From: a virus
Strand: one strand, 5' to 3'
Virus record (IMG/VR): IMGVR_UViG_3300025411_000061
Coordinates: 1-28,651 of that record
Length of the DNA: 28,651 nucleotides
In this document: in pieces, positions 164 to 14,459 of the stretch
Layout of the letters: every line of letters begins with the position of its first letter
Position numbering within the stretch: position 1 is the stretch's first letter
Program-made: the position numbers and the translations under genes
Notes under the pieces: model-generated
Seen by the model: the letters and a program-made list of their open reading frames with translations, nothing else
What the model was told of the DNA's origin: nothing
The model's database searches: none

Positions 164-1786
164 ATGGCAAACTTACTACAGTCCTCACAAAATAAATCGA
201 CCTGTGCGCCGTCGTATTACACGAACTACCTTCAAAACCTAGCAACCAAAGGTCAGCAGGCACAGTGTGGCGCACAGTTCGTAGGGGCTCAACCCCTGCA
301 ACAAGAGGCTTTTTGTAAGGCCGCGACAAACTTTGGAGCCCAACAGGGCAACTTTGCAACTGCTCAAAATTTGTTGGGATGCGCGGCTAAACAGAACATC
401 ACCGGTTCTGCGGCTCCTTTCCTGACCGCAGGCACGAGCACCAACCCACTGTCAACCCTTCAGCCATATGCCAATCAGGCCATGGCTACCACTGGTGTGC
501 AGGCGGCAACTCCTGACATTGCCAAAGGCACAGCATTGTGTGCGGCAGGTGCGGCGAGCCCATACATTCAACAAGCGGCGGCTAAAGGTGGTCTATGCGC
601 GGCTCAACCTGATTTGAGCAAAGCTCTTGGTACAAACATTTTAGGCACAGCACAAGGATTGATTTGCAAGGCCGCTTCAAGAGGCGGTTTATGCGCGGCA
701 CAGCCTTACTTGAACAAAGTATCAGGCACTTGCACTGCTCAGTTGGCTCAGTCTTACATGAGCCCTTATTTGCAGTCTGCTGTGCAAAACATGTCAGACA
801 TTGCTAACCGCAACATTCAGCAGAATTTGGCTCCTCAAGCCACTGCGGCGGCTGTTGGCTCAGGTCAATTTGGTTCTCAGCGTGGTGCTCAAGTGTTGGG
901 CCAAGTTGAGGCCAACGCAATGCAATGCTTGAACAGTCAGATCGCCAACATGGAAAACCAAGGCTACGGTCAAGCTCTTACTGCCGCAGGCCAGAAACAA
1001 CAGATTTGCGCAGGGCTTGGTCAGACTGCCGGTACATTGGGCGAACAGCAACAAAGCTTGCTTGCAGGCTTGGCAGGCACCACTGGTTGCTTGGCGGCAA
1101 AGTGCGCATCTACAGCGTTGCAAGCAGGTCAAACTGCAGGTTCATTGGCTCAACAACAACAAAACTTGTTGGGTACTTTGGGTGGCACTACAGGTCAATT
1201 GACTGCATCTCAGATGCAAAACTTGATCAACGCCGGTGGCACTTTGGGCCAACAGCAAACTGCGGCAAATCAAATTGCGGCAAACTTGGGCTCTACTGCG
1301 GCAAATGCTCAACAGGGCTTCAACACAGCCAATCTGCAGGCAGGCCAAACAGCCGGAACGATGGCGGCAGAACAGGCTCGCGCGCTCACAGCGGCAGGTC
1401 AAGGCATGGGTTCTCTTGGCGTACAAGCGGCAGGTCAGAATCTGGCTTGTATCAACGCTTTGGCGACTCTGGGTGCTCAATGCCAGACCATCAAGCAAAA
1501 CCAACAATGCTATCCATTCACGACCTTGTCCAAGCTTTCAAGCTTGTTGCAGGGCGCGCAGATTCCTACCAGTGTCAAGACAACGATGTGCATGTCACCT
1601 CTGTCTGGATTGGCGGCAGGTGCCGGACTCATTAAAGGTATTGCATGCTGTTCTAACCTTTTGTGCGATGTCAAATGTTGGTTCAAAGGTTGCGCTGAAG
1701 GTGGTTTAGTAAGCGCTAAAGGCGGTGGCAGTATTGGATGCAGGTCAACTCGTCATCTTGGCGGCTTGCCCGGTGGGAGAAAATAA
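164..1786 (+). CDS. Cys-rich, Ala/Gln/Gly-rich putative virion protein
   Basis: This 540-residue protein has low complexity and is rich in Ala, Gln, Gly, Leu and Thr. It contains imperfect repeats such as GGLCAAQPDL/GGLCAAQPYL (roughly residues 145-190) and many AGQTAG-LAQQQQ-LL units (residues 270-430). The section around SDIANRNIQQNL and GSGQFGSQRGAQVLGQ resembles long helical structural proteins I associate with environmental tailed phages, so a tail-associated or internal virion role is inferred. It carries about 23 cysteines, while the next two proteins, with nearly 1100 residues together, have none. The C-terminal 60 residues are especially Cys-rich, with a CC pair and C-x3-C and C-x4-C spacings. 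The stop overlaps the start of the next gene (TAATG), so translation is probably coupled. The function is not established. Confidence 0.8.
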   Translation: MANLLQSSQNKSTCAPSYYTNYLQNLATKGQQAQCGAQFVGAQPLQQEAFCKAATNFGAQQGNFATAQNLLGCAAKQNITGSAAPFLTAGTSTNPLSTLQPYANQAMATTGVQAATPDIAKGTALCAAGAASPYIQQAAAKGGLCAAQPDLSKALGTNILGTAQGLICKAASRGGLCAAQPYLNKVSGTCTAQLAQSYMSPYLQSAVQNMSDIANRNIQQNLAPQATAAAVGSGQFGSQRGAQVLGQVEANAMQCLNSQIANMENQGYGQALTAAGQKQQICAGLGQTAGTLGEQQQSLLAGLAGTTGCLAAKCASTALQAGQTAGSLAQQQQNLLGTLGGTTGQLTASQMQNLINAGGTLGQQQTAANQIAANLGSTAANAQQGFNTANLQAGQTAGTMAAEQARALTAAGQGMGSLGVQAAGQNLACINALATLGAQCQTIKQNQQCYPFTTLSKLSSLLQGAQIPTSVKTTMCMSPLSGLAAGAGLIKGIACCSNLLCDVKCWFKGCAEGGLVSAKGGGSIGCRSTRHLGGLPGGRK

Positions 1787-3756
1787 TGGCAGATATCGGC
1801 GGTTTAGCCAAGGCAATGGATTTGTCAAACACCAACTTGTATGGTGCGGATACTGATCGCCTGCAGGAGCTCAGAGATGCCCAATCCAAGGCCATAGAAG
1901 CCCTACAGCACCGCTATGACCATCCAAACTGGTTCAAGGTAGCGGCAGGCTTTGCCAAGCCCCAATTAGGCGGTTTTGTGGCCTCCTTGGGTAGTGCATC
2001 TGATGCCTTGGGTGATTGGGTTGAAGAGAAGCGTCAAAACCAAATTCCTGTCAGCCAACTGGAGCTCACAAAAGCTCAGACCAACATGCTGTTGGGCAAC
2101 GAAGCCAAAGCGGCAGACATTGTCACCAAAGCAAAGACAGAGAACCGTCAACTCACGCCTGCTGAAATTCAAGAGATTACAAACTTGTCACCCAAGCGCG
2201 GTGAGATGCTCTTGAAATCCCAGTCAGGCAGAGCCGCTGAAGTTGCAAACAACATCGCAATCACTAAGCAAAACTACCAAGCGCGTGGAGAGCCCATGCC
2301 TCCGCTCAATGAGATGGGCCTGCCAGACACAGGGAAATACCCAACTGGTGCAAATAGTGGCACCGGTGGCGGTGCAGGCGGTGGCGGCTCTGGCGTTATT
2401 CCTGACAATGTTGCCGGTGGCGATAAAGGCCCGACTGTCAATGCACAAGAAGGTCAAGGTGCAGTTGTTCCCAATAAGGGCGGCATTGAGGCCAACATTG
2501 GCGGTGACAACGCAGGTCGCACATTGCCTTCTGCTGTACCTCCTGCGGCTCCTGCCCCTCAAGCACAGCCACAAACAAAGAACATTTATGTGTTGCCCAA
2601 CGGCGCGCGCGCAAGCGAAGATGTCTATGCATTGCACAAGGCAGGCGTTCCAATCATCAGCAACATCCGCACTCAAGAAGAGCAAGATGCGCTGAAAGAT
2701 CACCAAGATGCAAATGGCAATTGGTACACCAAGCAAGGTTTGCCTGTTGCCGCAAATGGTGGCAAACACTTGTCTGGCGATGCAATGGACATCGACACTA
2801 AAAAGCTTACAGACGATCAGAAAAAACTTTTGGACGACAAGGGTTGGCATCAGCCTGCATGGGCTACAAACCCCAAGAGCTCACAGTACGACCCCAACCA
2901 TTGGGAGCGCGACACAACTGGTGCTCAGGCTCCTGCACAAACTGCTCAAGTCAAGAAGCCTGAAGACACCACCAAACAGCCAAGCAAGCGCGAGGTGATT
3001 GTTTCCAATTGGCGTGATGCATCGCCCATCAATCCTTACACTAATCAAGAAGCCGGTATTAAAGAAACGCAAGCTTATTTGAATGGTCAAGGCAAAACAT
3101 ATGCTGATGGCCTGAATGCTACTGGAAGCAATCAAGTGCATGCCAATGTAATGCGCCCTATCAGTAACTTAGAGTCTGAAGCACAAGACCCGCGCTTTGA
3201 TCAAGTCATGGGTATTTTTGGCGGTAAGGGATTATTGTCTGGCTTGGCTCAATTGGTTCAAGGTGGCGTGAATGTGAATTTGGCAGACTTCAATGCTCAA
3301 GTCGGCGTTAATTTGCAAAAAATTGCTCAAGCTTCTTTGCCTGCTGAGGTAGTTCCTTTTGCGCAAGAGGTATATCGCAATTTAGCGCAGATGGCATTAA
3401 ACAATCAAAAATCAGCAGGTGTAAGCCCAAGCACCGCTCGCAATGCTGAACTAGGTATTTTGGCTGATGCAAGTGCTCATCCTGAGACTTCACCTGCCGC
3501 CGCGCGTTTGTATATTCGTCAATCAAATCTGGCTCAACGCATGAACCGTGATTTGTATTTGGATCATCAAAAATTGATTACCAACACTCACCCTGATTTT
3601 GTATTGGATTCCAAATCACCTGTGCCTTTGTATGACGCATCACGCGCCAAAAGCCAACAGTCCATCATTGATGACTATAACCAAGCTCTTGAAAACGAAG
3701 TAAAGAAATTTAGAGAACAAACTGCCGCTAAGAAGAAGGGGGCAAACAATGGGTAA
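1786..3756 (+). CDS. Large virion-type protein with embedded M15 peptidase domain
   Basis: I place the start at the ATG at 1786, which overlaps the previous stop, and not at an in-frame ATG 48 bases upstream. This gives 656 residues. The N-terminal 180 residues are helical. A Gly-rich linker follows (about 188-205), then a Pro/Ala linker (about 245-262). A domain at about 265-376 resembles peptidase M15 (VanY/D-Ala-D-Ala carboxypeptidase or L-Ala-D-Glu endopeptidase). It has the zinc motif H328-x2-G-x-A-x-D335 (KHLSGDAMDID) and a later H372-W-E pair. The C-terminal half is helical and unassigned. In this family the enzyme cuts peptide bonds in peptidoglycan. Fusion to long helical regions in a late operon suggests a virion-borne cell-wall enzyme used at entry, though a lysis role cannot be excluded. 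The protein contains no cysteine. Confidence 0.8.
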   Translation: MADIGGLAKAMDLSNTNLYGADTDRLQELRDAQSKAIEALQHRYDHPNWFKVAAGFAKPQLGGFVASLGSASDALGDWVEEKRQNQIPVSQLELTKAQTNMLLGNEAKAADIVTKAKTENRQLTPAEIQEITNLSPKRGEMLLKSQSGRAAEVANNIAITKQNYQARGEPMPPLNEMGLPDTGKYPTGANSGTGGGAGGGGSGVIPDNVAGGDKGPTVNAQEGQGAVVPNKGGIEANIGGDNAGRTLPSAVPPAAPAPQAQPQTKNIYVLPNGARASEDVYALHKAGVPIISNIRTQEEQDALKDHQDANGNWYTKQGLPVAANGGKHLSGDAMDIDTKKLTDDQKKLLDDKGWHQPAWATNPKSSQYDPNHWERDTTGAQAPAQTAQVKKPEDTTKQPSKREVIVSNWRDASPINPYTNQEAGIKETQAYLNGQGKTYADGLNATGSNQVHANVMRPISNLESEAQDPRFDQVMGIFGGKGLLSGLAQLVQGGVNVNLADFNAQVGVNLQKIAQASLPAEVVPFAQEVYRNLAQMALNNQKSAGVSPSTARNAELGILADASAHPETSPAAARLYIRQSNLAQRMNRDLYLDHQKLITNTHPDFVLDSKSPVPLYDASRAKSQQSIIDDYNQALENEVKKFREQTAAKKKGANNG

Positions 3757-5068
3757 GTATTCTTCAGGCTTAAATGATATTTATGGAGCAGAAACTCCTG
3801 CAGATGGCGAGGAAAAAAAAGCCTTAGCGCCTAATGAAGAGGTTGTGCGCAAAGAGCCTCAAGGAAACGCAGATGCAGGCTATAAAGGCTTGCCTGAGAT
3901 GAACTATGGCACCATCAAAGTAGATCAACAGGCGCCTAGCGGTGGCCCCGGCATTGGTGAGGTTTTGGGTGGTGGCGCCGCAGGCTATGCCGCTCACAAA
4001 ATCAATCAGGCAACGATGATTCCTGATGCGGCTCGCAACAATGCAATCAATGTGCGCAACACCAACAAAGCGCTTGATCAAGCTATCTTGAACCATGCGC
4101 CCAATGAGGCTGAATTGGCAGAAGCTGAACTGGGTCACAAGTTTTGGCACAGCGAAGAAGCTCTGAACAAGAACATTGATCCTGCCGATCTGCCTGAGCC
4201 TCCACCCAAGGAGCCGGTCAAATTGGAATTCAGCCACGAGGGTGGCCCCGGAGTAGAAAACTATGAAGGCAAGTTTGTTCCAAACGAATTTGACAAAACT
4301 TCTCCAAGCATGTCGCACACACAAAAAGTCGTCATTCCTGCGAATGAAGCGGCTTCTTTGCGTACTCAGGAAATTGCCCCCGGCACAGCGATAGAGAAAG
4401 AGACTGGGTTGGCCCTTGACCCTGCGGCGCAAAAGGCTCAGATGGAGCGCAAACAAGCCGCATTGGACAAAGCCGAGGCTGACAAACTTGCCTATGAGCA
4501 AAAGGTGGCTGACGCCAAGGCAAAGGCCGAGATCAAGATTCAGCCTCAGCGTGACGCCGCAACTCAACGGTTGGAAGCCGCCAAAGCTAACGCACAAGCA
4601 ACAGGCAAAGAAGTCAGCCGATTGACTGGCAAGTCAGCCCAACAGACGGGCAACCTTAACGCCAACACGGCAGAGATGAATCCTGCAAACGCTCAAAGAC
4701 TTGAGAATATTGCGACGAAGGGTTCCATGCTTGGCGACATCGTGGAAAGCGGTGGACGCTTGATCAGGAAGTATGGTGGCCCTGCGGCGGCTCTAGCGGC
4801 TCCATATGAGTTTGGACAAGCCGCTGATGCTTGGCATGGTGGTGACACCACTGGAGCCATCAAACACGCTGTAAGTGGGCTTGGCGGTCTTGCACAAGCC
4901 GCTCCTATGGTTGCGGCGGCAGGTCTTATGGCACCTGAGATTGCGGCAGGGACAGCCGTTGCCGGTGGGTTAGCCGGTGCCGGTGTCCTTGCGCATGATG
5001 TTTATGAGAATTGGCCCGAAATCAAGAAGTGGGGCGCGAGCCATTTACCAGACTCTTGGACTAAGTAG
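3749..5068 (+). CDS. Putative virion protein with coiled coil and glycine-zipper-like C-terminus
   Basis: This 439-residue protein starts at 3749, overlapping the previous gene by 8 bases. The N-terminal 200 residues are acidic and mixed. Residues about 222-285 form a strongly charged Ala/Lys/Glu/Gln coiled coil. Residues about 330-425 are rich in Ala and Gly with hydrophobic stretches (AAPMVAAAGLMAPEIAAG, AVAGGLAGAGVLAHDV) that could insert into a membrane. This combination suits a protein ejected from the virion or an internal virion protein, which is inference from composition and context. It is the last gene before a strong terminator. I do not recognise the family. Confidence 0.75.
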   Translation: MGKYSSGLNDIYGAETPADGEEKKALAPNEEVVRKEPQGNADAGYKGLPEMNYGTIKVDQQAPSGGPGIGEVLGGGAAGYAAHKINQATMIPDAARNNAINVRNTNKALDQAILNHAPNEAELAEAELGHKFWHSEEALNKNIDPADLPEPPPKEPVKLEFSHEGGPGVENYEGKFVPNEFDKTSPSMSHTQKVVIPANEAASLRTQEIAPGTAIEKETGLALDPAAQKAQMERKQAALDKAEADKLAYEQKVADAKAKAEIKIQPQRDAATQRLEAAKANAQATGKEVSRLTGKSAQQTGNLNANTAEMNPANAQRLENIATKGSMLGDIVESGGRLIRKYGGPAAALAAPYEFGQAADAWHGGDTTGAIKHAVSGLGGLAQAAPMVAAAGLMAPEIAAGTAVAGGLAGAGVLAHDVYENWPEIKKWGASHLPDSWTK

Positions 5069-6453: not shown

Positions 6454-7650
6454 TTATGCTCCTTTGACGCACATGACTTGTTTGAGAATATGAACCACTT
6501 CGACTAAGTCTGTTTGGTTCGCCATGACTTGATCAATGTCTTTGTAGCTACTAGGAATTTCGTCAATAACTGACGCATCTTTGCGGCACTCGACACCTTC
6601 GGTTTGCTTGATGAGGTCATCAATGCTGAAACGCCTTTTAGCCTCAGCTCTGGACATACTGCGTCCTGCCCCATGCGAACAAGAACAATAGGATTGAAGC
6701 TCACCTTTTCCACGGACAATATACGATTTTTGACCCATAGAACCCGGAATAATTCCCAAGTCTCCTGATCTCGCACGAATAGCTCCTTTACGGGTAACCC
6801 AGAGATTTCGTCCAAAGTGATGCTCCTTTTCGACATAGTTGTGATGGCAATTGATCGCCTCTTGGGTAATCGTGAATTCTTTTGGAATATGCTTTTTGAG
6901 CGCTACCAAAACAACTTCCATCATCAACTTTCGATTTTCCAAAGCATAGTCTTGCGCCCACTGAACGGCTTCCATGTAGTCATTGAAATCTTCAGTGTCC
7001 TCAGGCAAATAGGCCAAGTCTGAATCAGGCAAGCTGATAAAGAATTTTTCCATTTGACGCTTGGCTTTTTCGATGTAGTGCGACCCAATCATGTTGCCAA
7101 TGCCACGAGAGCCAGAGTGAAGCATGACCCACACATCTTGATTCTCATCAATGCAAAGTTCAATGAAATGATTGCCTGATCCAAGTGTGCCAAGTTGGGG
7201 CGCGGCTTTTTTCCAGTAATCACCGGCAATCTCGTTGAGGTTTTCGCAAAGATTGAATGATGTTTTAGGAAGGCGACCTAACCGATTGTTGACCTCTTCA
7301 TCTCGCTGTAAACGACCACCTGCACCCAGCGGGATGTCGCGCTCAATTTGGGCGCGAATATCTTTCAAGGATTCGGGCAAGTCGGAAGCTTTTAATGAGG
7401 TTCTGACAGCATTCATGCCACAACCAATGTCAACACCTACAGCCGCAGGAATGATGGCTTTCTCGGTGGCAATAACAGTGCCCACGGTAGAGCCTTTTCC
7501 TGCATGAACATCAGGCATGCAAACCACGCCATGATGGTTGATAAAAGGTAGACGCGCCAAATTCTTAAGTTGAGTTAGCGCCTCTCCTTCTACATCGTCA
7601 GTCCAAATTTTGATTGGGCGCGAGCCCTCTTCTTGAATGACTTGTTTCAT
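6454..7650 (-). CDS. rtcB: RNA-splicing/tRNA-repair ligase RtcB
   Basis: This 398-residue protein is full length for the family and has every hallmark. They are MPDVHAGKGSTVGTV (45-59), GVDIGCGM with metal-binding D74 and C77, LGSGNHFIEL with H161, HSGSRGIG with H178, NCHHNYVEKE (267-276), the GxIPGSMG loop, SHGAGR with the nucleotidylated H326, and a C-terminal VKG. RtcB joins RNA 2',3'-cyclic phosphate or 3'-phosphate ends to 5'-OH ends using GTP and Mn2+. In a phage this would reseal tRNAs cut by host anticodon nucleases; the tRNA cluster in this window fits that, by inference. It starts 2 bases after the SSB-like gene with no good ribosome site, so translation is probably coupled. No archease gene is seen. 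Confidence 0.97.
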   Translation of the reverse strand: MKQVIQEEGSRPIKIWTDDVEGEALTQLKNLARLPFINHHGVVCMPDVHAGKGSTVGTVIATEKAIIPAAVGVDIGCGMNAVRTSLKASDLPESLKDIRAQIERDIPLGAGGRLQRDEEVNNRLGRLPKTSFNLCENLNEIAGDYWKKAAPQLGTLGSGNHFIELCIDENQDVWVMLHSGSRGIGNMIGSHYIEKAKRQMEKFFISLPDSDLAYLPEDTEDFNDYMEAVQWAQDYALENRKLMMEVVLVALKKHIPKEFTITQEAINCHHNYVEKEHHFGRNLWVTRKGAIRARSGDLGIIPGSMGQKSYIVRGKGELQSYCSCSHGAGRSMSRAEAKRRFSIDDLIKQTEGVECRKDASVIDEIPSSYKDIDQVMANQTDLVEVVHILKQVMCVKGA

Positions 7651-7652
7651 GA

Positions 7653-8312
7653 TCAGAAAGGGATGTCGTCGTCTTCGTCGAACGCAGGCTTCGGTGAGTT
7701 GGCCTCAGCGTTTGCGTCCTTCTGGTAGTCAGCGGCCTTCTTGACCTTTTCAAACTCTGGCGAGTTGATGATCTTTTGTTTCAGGTTGTCGCTGAATGTT
7801 TCAAACAGAACCCAGTCAGGCTCCTGCAGATTGAACATCTCGTTCTTGTTGACCGGATTTGGCAGGCCGTTTTGCTTGATGATGGTGGGCACTGGCGACA
7901 CGCTGTCCACATTGGAGTAGGTGTTGCCATTCTGACCTTGGCGCTCGATCACATTGAGCATGCACCATGCACCCAAAACATTCTTTAGGTCAAACTTGCG
8001 CATCTCTTCTTGGCTGAAGGGCTTACCGCGCCATGACTGTAGATCAAGGCGAAGATTTGCTTTCTCAGACCAACTAAGCGTATAGTTTTTGAAGATTGCA
8101 AAGGGGCGCCCGTCTATCATCTTGAGGGGTTTGCCACTGTCGTCTACACCGTGAAGTTCCCACCCGATCATGATCTTGTGGAGGTACTTGGTTTGACCCA
8201 TATACTCGGACTTTTGTGTGCCCAAGTCCACGATTCGGTAGCACCTTGCTAAGTGCATACCGGGAGGGCTTCGCTCGAAATTCCCACCCTTGTCTTCTAC
8301 ATAAAAGCTCAT
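7653..8312 (-). CDS. Putative single-stranded DNA-binding protein
   Basis: This 219-residue protein has a beta-rich N-terminal two thirds (for example ARCYRIVDLGTQKSEYMG and KYLHKIMIGWEL), compatible with an OB-fold, and a charged helical region after about 165. It ends in DEDDDIPF (212-219), the acidic tipped tail typical of SSB proteins, which recruits replication and repair partners. The tail is seen directly; the fold is inferred. It is the first gene of the leftward operon, with AAGGAG before the ATG at 8312, and it precedes RtcB and the nuclease. It could coat single-stranded DNA during replication or recombination. Confidence 0.75.
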   Translation of the reverse strand: MSFYVEDKGGNFERSPPGMHLARCYRIVDLGTQKSEYMGQTKYLHKIMIGWELHGVDDSGKPLKMIDGRPFAIFKNYTLSWSEKANLRLDLQSWRGKPFSQEEMRKFDLKNVLGAWCMLNVIERQGQNGNTYSNVDSVSPVPTIIKQNGLPNPVNKNEMFNLQEPDWVLFETFSDNLKQKIINSPEFEKVKKAADYQKDANAEANSPKPAFDEDDDIPF

Positions 8313-8371
8313 CTCTTACTCCTTGAAAAACGGTCTTACTGACCTTTACCCGGCGACTGTGCCGTGAAAAG

Positions 8372-8377
8372 ACTATA
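8372..8377 (-). promoter_or_regulatory. -10 box of leftward promoter for the SSB-rtcB-nuclease operon
   Basis: On the minus strand TATAGT (8377-8372) lies about 60 bases before the SSB-like start. The -35 region would fall in the inverted repeat 8385-8401, so one bound regulator could cover both divergent promoters. No strong -35 hexamer is visible. Confidence 0.45.
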
Positions 8378-8384
8378 CCACAAA

Positions 8385-8403
8385 TCTAATTTTGTGTTAG
8401 ACT
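8385..8403 (+). promoter_or_regulatory. Operator/promoter element O1 before the Cro-like gene
   Basis: The inverted repeat TCTAA-N7-TTAGA (8385-8401) has a -10-like TAGACT (8398-8403) overlapping its right arm. Close copies occur at 13770, 14679 and 19163, with diverged forms at 16846 and 21331. It lies 28 bases before the Cro/YdaS-like gene, so autoregulation is likely. The -35 is weak. Confidence 0.65.
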
Positions 8404-8431
8404 ATTTGTTAGAGTTTCAGAAAGGAGTTCT

Positions 8432-8632
8432 ATGAACCTAAAAAAATATTTCGAGGAAGAGCCCTACGGGGCCAAGAAAGAGATGGCTGAGTACCTCGGC
8501 ATCACCCCAACATGGTTGGGATTGTTATTGAGGAAAGCTCGCCGACCTTCAGCAGAGTTGGCAAAGAAGATCGAGAAGGCAACGCAAGGACTGGTCACAG
8601 CAAAAGAACTACGCCCCGATTTATTTGACTGA
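8432..8632 (+). CDS. Cro/YdaS-like helix-turn-helix regulator
   Basis: This 66-residue protein resembles the Cro/YdaS antitoxin-like DNA-binding family. It has a helix-turn-helix at about 14-36 (AKKEMAEYLGITPTWLGLLL), a KARRPSAELAKKIEKAT segment, and the ending ELRPDLFD that is typical of YdaS-type proteins. Such proteins bind short inverted repeats as dimers. It has a good ribosome site (AAAGGAG) and sits just downstream of operator O1, in the divergent region facing the leftward operon. It is therefore the best candidate for the protein that reads the repeated TCTAA-N7-TTAGA operators. Whether it represses or activates cannot be seen. Confidence 0.85.
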   Translation: MNLKKYFEEEPYGAKKEMAEYLGITPTWLGLLLRKARRPSAELAKKIEKATQGLVTAKELRPDLFD

Positions 8633-8651
8633 AATTTAACAGGAGATGTGA

Positions 8652-9455
8652 ATGAAAAGAACGCTGAAATTGGTACCCATCAACACCGTGAGGATCGATG
8701 GAGACACCCAATCAAGAGTAGAGATGGACGCCAACTGGATTCAGAAGATCGTTGACGATCTGAAGAATGACATGGAGTACGACCCGATTGAGACACGCTT
8801 TGACGGTTCGCACCACTGGCTATCAGATGGCTTCCATCGCTACCTTGCGTACAAGCAACTTGGCGTGAAGGAAATCAATGTCAACTATTTGCCCGGCTCG
8901 CAGTTTGATGCCCAAGTGGACTCATACGGCGCCAACGGCAAACACGGTAGAGCTCGCACACGGGCCGACAAAGAGCGCAGTGTTGAGAACGCCATTAACA
9001 ACCCACTGCTCAAGGACAAGAGCAACTACGAGATCGCCAAAATCTGCGTGGTATCTCAGCCCTTTGTGGCTTCAGTGCGTGACCCAGAGCGCAAAAAGAA
9101 GCAGGCAGAGAGCGTCAAGAAGCACTTCGAGAAGAAGATTCAAGAGAAACAAAATACTAATTTAATTAGTAGTGAAAAACCAACAGATAGGGAAAATCCC
9201 TACGCCGGTGAGGCGCCCTCAGACGAGGAAATCAAGGCGGCAGAGTTGGCGCTGATTGCTGACCAAGAGGCCATGTACAAGCTCTTGGACTCAGACGATG
9301 CACTGGCGACAGCACACGAAGAAATCAAGCGCCTGAACTACTTGAATGCTCAACTAGAGACACGCCTTCATGGACTCATGAATGAGCGCAACGAGGCCGT
9401 GAAAATGGTCAAGAAACTTCAAAAAGAAAATGACAAACTGAAAGCCAAAAAATGA
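8652..9455 (+). CDS. ParB-like protein (ParB/Srx domain, HTH, coiled coil)
   Basis: This 267-residue protein has an N-terminal ParB/sulfiredoxin-like domain with the signature D59-G-F-H-R63 (LSDGFHRYLAYKQLG). An HTH-like segment follows at about 123-143 (NYEIAKICVVSQPFVASVR), then a basic linker and a long C-terminal coiled coil (about 215-267). ParB-family domains bind nucleotides and, with the HTH, palindromic DNA sites; some phage relatives act as nucleases or regulators. Its linker coding region (codons 168-174) contains one copy of a palindrome that recurs three more times in the genome. AGGAG precedes the ATG, and its stop overlaps the helicase start (ATGA). There is no parA-like ATPase nearby. 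Confidence 0.85.
   Translation: MKRTLKLVPINTVRIDGDTQSRVEMDANWIQKIVDDLKNDMEYDPIETRFDGSHHWLSDGFHRYLAYKQLGVKEINVNYLPGSQFDAQVDSYGANGKHGRARTRADKERSVENAINNPLLKDKSNYEIAKICVVSQPFVASVRDPERKKKQAESVKKHFEKKIQEKQNTNLISSEKPTDRENPYAGEAPSDEEIKAAELALIADQEAMYKLLDSDDALATAHEEIKRLNYLNAQLETRLHGLMNERNEAVKMVKKLQKENDKLKAKK
9155..9171. repeat. Palindrome copy 1 (TACTAATTTAATTAGTA), inside the ParB-like gene
   Basis: A perfect 17-bp palindrome around a central T lies in frame within the ParB-like linker region. The 30 bases that follow resemble those following copy 2 (AAAA-x-CAACA then TAGGG), so the repeated unit is longer than the palindrome. Confidence 0.85.
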
Positions 9456-13054: not shown

Positions 13055-13129
13055 CTGTGCGTAGCGCAGTGGTAGCGCGCGTGTCTTGGGCACACGAGGT
13101 CGTAGGTTCGATCCCTACCGCACAGACCA
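13055..13129 (+). tRNA. tRNA-Pro(TGG)
   Basis: The cloverleaf is perfect. The acceptor is CTGTGCG/CGCACAG (7 bp), the D stem GCGC/GCGC with loop AGTGGTA, and the anticodon stem CGTGT/ACACG with loop CTTGGGC (anticodon TGG at 13087-13089). The T stem is GTAGG/CCTAC with loop TTCGATC, followed by A and an encoded CCA. It reads CCN proline codons, mainly CCA and CCG. Confidence 0.97.
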
Positions 13130-13157
13130 ATCATCATCGAAATTGACCCTATCCCAT

Positions 13158-13235
13158 TGTGGTAGAGCAAGCAAGGTGTATGCGCTCGGCTGTTAACCGA
13201 GAATGAGTTTGGTTCGATTCCAAATACCACAGCCA
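13158..13235 (+). tRNA. tRNA-Asn(GTT)
   Basis: The acceptor is TGTGGTA/TACCACA (7 bp). The D arm has a short GCA/TGC stem and a large loop. The anticodon stem is CTCGG/CCGAG with loop CTGTTAA (anticodon GTT at 13192-13194), and the T stem is TTTGG/CCAAA with loop TTCGATT, followed by G and an encoded CCA. It is 28 bases after tRNA-Pro. Confidence 0.95.
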
Positions 13236-13241
13236 CTTTAT

Positions 13242-13315
13242 GGTGTCGGTAGTGTAGTGGTAGCACGACAGCCTGTGAATCTGTCAGCGAGAGTTCGATT
13301 CTCCCCTTCACCCCA
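13242..13315 (+). tRNA. tRNA-His(GTG), irregular acceptor stem
   Basis: The D arm (GTGT/GCAC), the anticodon loop CTGTGAA (anticodon GTG at 13275-13277), the T loop TTCGATT and a 3' CCA are present. G at 13242 fits the extra G-1 of tRNA-His. The acceptor stem is poor: GGTG pairs with CACC, but the next two pairs are T-T and C-T. The 3' strand is one base short for a G-1 tRNA, the anticodon stem has a C-T closing mismatch, and the T stem has an A-C mismatch. It may be degenerate or need editing or special handling. Confidence 0.75.
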
Positions 13316-13814: not shown

Positions 13815-14459
13815 ATGGACAAACTTGAAGAGTTCCACTACTTCACCACCCCGATCTACGCGGTGAAGTTGCCACAGTTTTTGGAACCCATTCGCAAGAT
13901 TTCGAATCAATACCTTGCCAAGTCAAGGGCGCGGCACAAGAACAAAAAGAACCCCATGACCGTGATGACTGCAAGCTTCTCGCACGAGCCGGATGCCGCA
14001 GAGTTTGCGCAGTATGTCTCCCAAACCGCATGGAACATCTTCGCGGCTCAGGGCTACAACATGGACAACTTGGTCACCTTCTTTCAAGAGATGTGGACTC
14101 AAGAGCACAACTTCCAATCTGCCATGGAGACTCATGTCCACGGCAACGGCGCGGCGATCAGCGCGTTCTACTTCCTCAACATGCCAAAGAACGCCATGAA
14201 GATGGTGATTCACGATCCACGCCCCGGCAAAGTCATCACCAATTTGCCGGTTAAGGACAACAAGAAAGTCGCGCCTGCATCGACGCAGGTGGTCTTCACG
14301 CCTGAAGAGGGCACACTCATCTTCACACCGGCATGGTTGCCTCACCAGTTCAGCCGCAACCTTAACCGCGAGCAATCGGTGAAGTTCGTCCACATGAATC
14401 TTGGCGTCACGCAAGCACCACAGGAGGCGGCGGCTGACCCTAAAGTGGAGGTGATATGA
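13815..14459 (+). CDS. 2OG-Fe(II) oxygenase-like protein
   Basis: This 214-residue protein follows the pattern of the putative 2OG-Fe(II) oxygenase family common in aquatic phages (2OG-FeII_Oxy_5 type). It has H107-V-H109 (ETHVHGNGAAISAFYFLN), an IHDPRPGK segment (132-138), then GTLIFTPAWLPH177 with downstream R185. Family members use Fe(II) and 2-oxoglutarate to hydroxylate proteins, nucleic acids or small molecules; the phage substrate is unknown. The first metal motif is HxH and not the classical HxD, so catalysis is likely but not certain. AGGAG precedes the ATG. It is the first gene after the RNA island and overlaps the next gene by ATGA. Confidence 0.75.
   Translation: MDKLEEFHYFTTPIYAVKLPQFLEPIRKISNQYLAKSRARHKNKKNPMTVMTASFSHEPDAAEFAQYVSQTAWNIFAAQGYNMDNLVTFFQEMWTQEHNFQSAMETHVHGNGAAISAFYFLNMPKNAMKMVIHDPRPGKVITNLPVKDNKKVAPASTQVVFTPEEGTLIFTPAWLPHQFSRNLNREQSVKFVHMNLGVTQAPQEAAADPKVEVI

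Follow-up and report, generated by a model that had tools for sequence, protein, structure and literature searches.

The DNA window analyzed here, a stretch of 28,651 nucleotides (positions 1 to 28,651 of the IMG/VR virus record IMGVR_UViG_3300025411_000061), raises the question of why one phage gene should be loaded with cysteine next to genes that have none. The open reading frame at 164–1786 (+) encodes 540 amino acids, of which 23 are Cys and only 4 are Asp, and the Cys recur in CAA and CKA contexts. The probability of at least 23 Cys in 540 residues was about 7e-8, taking as background the 1.1% Cys of the other ORFs on the same phage contig. By contrast, no Cys was found in the following 656 and 439 residues. 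The original prediction, made from the sequence alone, had pointed out this contrast, the near absence of Asp and the Cys contexts, and all three were confirmed. The first of the Cys-free genes occupies 1786–3756 (+); the ORF list gave its start as 1738, and the overlap with the target gene favors the ATG at 1786. This gene is Cys-free in nearly all of the relatives too. Part of its product (HLSGDAMDID ... HWE) resembles a Zn peptidase motif by eye, and the protein had no Pfam or PHROG match. The second gene lies at 3749–5068 (+), where the relatives have a transglycosylase at the equivalent place.

That this excess of Cys is an artefact, due to base calling, assembly or recoded Cys codons, is hardly credible, even if low-complexity repeats can mislead assembly. 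Three further IMG/VR contigs, assigned to metagenomes with other numbers, match the target gene at every base, and since these assemblies carry the same gene a base-calling error, a concern raised together with the original prediction, is very unlikely. In the poly-Cys tail runs of the relatives the codons TGC and TGT are mixed, and a conserved module follows these runs in frame; on these grounds, a sequencing or frame artefact in the target was rejected. Recoding of the Cys codons was also rejected, as TGT and TGC are read as Cys at conserved sites of other genes of the window, namely DIGCGM in an RtcB protein, CSVCG in an HNH protein and CPKCG in a helicase.

Regarding the identity of the target, neither this protein nor its upstream neighbor matched any Pfam family, and the window protein itself remained below threshold against the PHROG profiles. 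However, PHROG 4287 (DNA ejection protein) was matched by 8 of the 53 aligned relatives (best value 1.7e-5) and by the homologue from Caulobacter phage RW, gp065c (1.6e-9). In the relatives the gene is placed beside a transglycosylase or other lytic virion genes, and in MW202545.1, a phage from Manatee Spring, the same block holds a gene annotated as phage stabilisation protein and a transglycosylase. The window phage also encodes a SU10-type adaptor and an Sf6-type small terminase. Judging from profile matches and gene order, the target is thus in all likelihood a DNA ejection protein of the PHROG 4287 type, encoded by a short-tailed phage, which supports the earlier assignment to a virion-type protein. 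In Escherichia phage SU10, gp20–24 are present in the virion and lost upon genome release (PMC9509320). The target family resembles the PHROG 4287 proteins (SU10 gp21 and gp22, RW gp065c) in the profile match of its relatives and in gene place, and both are helical and rich in Gln and Ala. These three known proteins contain no Cys, whereas the Cys-rich form of the family has 7–42 and an extra C-terminal module. The target is predicted to have a helical core (N-terminal and central), followed near residue 464 by a disordered Cys tail, with the terminal module GCRSTRHLGGLP at its end. An AlphaFold2 model of low confidence (pLDDT 61, pTM 0.29) was mostly helical with such a tail, and a fold search gave no significant match.

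The Cys content was compared in 101 distinct full-length relatives, obtained by scanning IMG/VR and bacterial genomes and by a protein search of annotated phages. They are the top scorers of a larger family, for which one scan gave 332 candidates; their contigs are partly fragments, and all of the Cys-rich members are uncultured. Going by MAG names alone, freshwater Burkholderiales are a guess at the hosts of the Cys-rich members. The count was all-or-none: 55 relatives had no Cys, 46 had between 7 and 42, and none had 1–6. The original prediction was to be doubted if closely related phages lacked these Cys; half of the relatives are indeed Cys-free, but all of the close ones are Cys-rich. The extra C-terminal module, a Cys tail followed by GC..ST..G.LP, was present in 43 of 44 Cys-rich relatives and in none of 53 Cys-free ones, and the median number of Lys was 15.5 in the former and 4 in the latter. 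Cys-free relatives such as L098, L093 and L087 share with the Cys-rich ones the N-terminus MANLLQSS, the core, the gene order and the C-terminal domain of the upstream protein, but they have no Cys, little Lys and no GC..ST..GxLP module, and their upstream linker is rich in Thr, Pro or Asp instead of Cys. With the Cys columns left out of tree building, the best topology needs at least three changes of Cys state, and the starred branches force only one. The Manatee Spring phage mentioned above carries a true member of the family (L099, at 8001–9239 of MW202545.1), with 412 amino acids, 33 Cys, the same gene order and a Cys tail reaching runs such as CCSCCCSCCCSCCCSCCC. It is the only annotated Cys-rich relative, and its product is labelled "coronavirus S2 glycoprotein", most likely by false transfer.

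The impression that Cys stands where Asp, Asn or Gln would be expected was borne out in the core. At 17 of the 21 core Cys columns the commonest residue of the Cys-free relatives was polar (D, E, N, Q, S or T), when 9 were expected (p 1.5e-4), and Asp made up 9.6% of their residues at these columns versus 1.2% at the other core columns, an eightfold difference. At position 429, 44 of 45 Cys-rich members have Cys, while 20 of 26 Cys-free ones have Asp. Since the core Cys take the place of polar residues, they fit exposed rather than buried sites. Cys is also near-universal in the Cys-rich group at positions 476 and 526 and occurs at 510 in 35 of 45 members; the remaining sites mostly drift while the total stays high. 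Core Cys counts showed no preference for parity (25 even, 20 odd). Some Cys columns co-occur, for example 197 and 449 with a phi of 0.84, but the search for specific disulfide pairs by co-occurrence was set aside because relatedness is still in this signal. A helical-face analysis was set aside as well, there being too few Cys per helix.

Upstream of the target, the window holds the 3' end of another gene (1–160, +), the bulk of which is cut off and was thus out of sight of the original prediction. The whole gene was found on contig G001 (46625–49207, −), 3 bases from the start of an identical target gene; it encodes 860 amino acids, of which 141 are Cys, and contains CCCDT/CCCDM pentads strung together in a run. 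Its repeat length is less sure, given how such repeats can be misassembled. The highest count, 148 Cys, was reached in the upstream gene of another relative (L078), where a stretch of 150 residues is 57% Cys, with no Lys and no aromatic residue. Such blocks are unusually dense and of possible interest for protein materials. They lie in the variable linker that precedes the C-terminal domain, a region of about 150 residues (GTGQSDDIPAMLHDGDYVMDA ... VPAKIADGEYVFP) which is kept in both Cys states and parts of which weakly match tape-measure PHROGs. In the Cys-free phages the same linker is of low complexity and made of Thr, Pro, Asp or Lys. The motif GCAS(T/K)...G(G/A)LP occurs inside the upstream proteins of three relatives (L028, L035 and L089) and at the C-terminus of the target (residues 525–536), in the manner of a signal for docking or processing common to the gene pair.

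The two genes are coupled in their Cys content. Beside Cys-free targets the upstream gene has 0–4 Cys, and beside Cys-rich ones up to the maximum given above. The Cys densities of both genes were correlated at 0.94 (Spearman) across 97 phages, a figure that kinship makes descriptive rather than a test, and at 0.79 inside the Cys-rich group alone, again a description of related phages. This tight coupling points to joint action of the two proteins rather than to separate outside targets. It therefore speaks against a thiol surface directed at the host or at particles, where free thiols or mixed disulfides with envelope proteins would anchor the virion or the channel, or thiols would scavenge oxidants. 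The Cys density in itself and the conserved C-terminal Cys module, predicted to be exposed in the disordered tail, would agree with such a surface, which we nevertheless regard as improbable.

The Cys density is under selection at the protein level. In the upstream gene of a close pair of phages (L019 and L027), 107 Cys are common to both, of which 35 are encoded by synonymous codons that differ between the two phages, and Cys gains nearly balance the losses; this pattern means that the density is selected in the protein. These data count against the idea that Cys codons in the variable linkers expanded neutrally or mutationally and were then inherited in one lineage, with no thiol function of their own. 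The low-complexity repeats would suit such an expansion, and the few tree changes needed for two states mean that common descent explains much of the pattern. However, Cys are also scattered in the core outside of the repeats, never as one or a few, and among the Cys-rich members the Cys of the two genes rise and fall together, making the neutral alternative quite improbable. The all-or-none counts, the coupled upstream gene and the Cys retained through synonymous changes support the class of thiol chemistry put forward in the original prediction, which had offered disulfide cross-linking, metal binding or a reactive surface; disulfides and metal are not separated by them.

As the best explanation, we tentatively propose that the ejection protein and its upstream partner form a thiol-dense pair that may become cross-linked by disulfides in an oxidising environment, a reading that the sequences make possible but which stays somewhat short of probable. 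Both proteins would be part of the virion, and the upstream one may be ejected as well, as its gene position suggests. Their thiols would stay reduced during synthesis in the host cytoplasm, and disulfides would form between and within the two proteins on meeting the oxidising environment, whether after ejection into the periplasm or while still in the released virion. What had been a flexible protein layer or tube would then become a covalent network. It weighs against this reading that cross-links formed already in the head would leave a protein hardly able to get through the tail channel, so that their timing would have to be controlled. The all-or-none counts hint that thiols in small numbers may be harmful in ejection proteins, which would be threaded through a channel and refold in the oxidising periplasm, and they suggest strict selection on thiols in DNA delivery. 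The Cys-rich phages would have adopted the opposite solution, placing many thiols in two proteins whose mutual contact is plausible. Drifting Cys sites, the lack of parity preference and the low-complexity blocks would point to cross-linking in bulk and not to a fold held by defined disulfides. With the rule reversed in two adjacent genes, these phages are a natural setting in which to ask if an envelope-spanning channel can be built by covalent cross-linking or by metal.

Against disulfides, metal binding accounts for the Cys density nearly as well. The Cys blocks would then be metallothionein-like segments binding Zn, Cu, Fe or another soft metal, which might fold or protect them in the virion or be carried by them into the host. 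Metallothioneins are Cys-dense, with few aromatic residues and with CC and CxC spacings, and Lys is usually adjacent to their Cys. The upstream blocks are alike in Cys density, in being almost without aromatic residues and in their CC, CxC and CxxC spacings, with Asp and Thr between the Cys. By contrast, the upstream protein is much longer than a metallothionein and of virion type, Lys is nearly absent from its densest blocks, several blocks contain few CxC spacings, and the scattered Cys of the target's helical core form no clusters in the sequence. The likeness is one of possible working only, and metal binding, the main rival to disulfides, seems rather unlikely. The proposed disulfide network also has a parallel in the ultra-high-sulfur keratin-associated proteins, which are built of short repeats that are very dense in Cys and also contain Pro, Thr and Ser. 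Similar repeats, such as CCAPTCCAPT and CCVPTDCCVPT, are found in the upstream proteins. Here too the parallel concerns only the way of working: no homology is claimed, the proteins are of phage origin, and their cross-linking would be a matter of analogy.

Additionally, a 2OG-Fe(II) oxygenase (PF13759, 47.3 bits versus a cut-off of 27) is encoded at 13815–14459 (+) of the window, and its His motifs are kept in 10 relatives. Among the contigs of sufficient reach, it was present in all 21 Cys-rich ones and in one of 8 Cys-free ones; since the tree holds a single independent contrast, descent alone can explain this association, and the enzyme is a candidate partner of the Cys-rich state, confounded with lineage. 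In a more elaborate version, these phages would possess a dedicated thiol system for DNA delivery. Two virion proteins that evolve together, of which at least one is ejected, would polymerise through their dense Cys blocks to build a conduit linked covalently or by metal, and the oxygenase would modify these blocks, while related phages without these parts would use an ordinary Cys-free ejection set. So complete a scheme is doubtful and has little probability. Counting against disulfide cross-linking in general, no thiol oxidase or thioredoxin family was found among the 25 Pfam families shown for 62 proteins of contig G001. No phage tRNA-Cys that could meet the Cys demand was found in three genomes scanned. 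Genes for tRNA-His, tRNA-Asn and tRNA-Pro adjoin the oxygenase on contig G001 (about 13055–13314 of the window, on the − strand side; 14471–14730 in L107).

The ejection protein family is already known, but its Cys-loaded two-gene state is new as far as could be found, as no description of Cys-rich ejection or virion proteins of phages was met in the literature searched. The Cys-packed gene pair points to an unstudied thiol-based step in phage assembly or DNA delivery. Poly-Cys did not appear as a common phage trait in DNA-pattern scans of IMG/VR (CCDCCDCC and CCTDCCTDCC), whose hits were for the most part frames that were short or unrelated; long ORFs clearly rich in Cys numbered just two, one from the target family (L185) and one unrelated (L197). 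The latter, at 7623–7826 (+) of an unrelated viral contig, belongs to an ORF of 237 residues with 64 Cys in CCDC/CSHC/CSYC repeats.

Moreover, a GP88 family protein of unknown function (PF17338) is encoded at 24006–25763 (+), adjoining the terminase and the portal; it was rejected as a partner of the Cys-rich state, since it occurs in Cys-free phages too. The RtcB protein of the window (6454–7650, −) is a full-length RtcB-type RNA ligase (PF01139, E 2.1e-131), with perhaps a role in the repair of tRNA cut by host defence.
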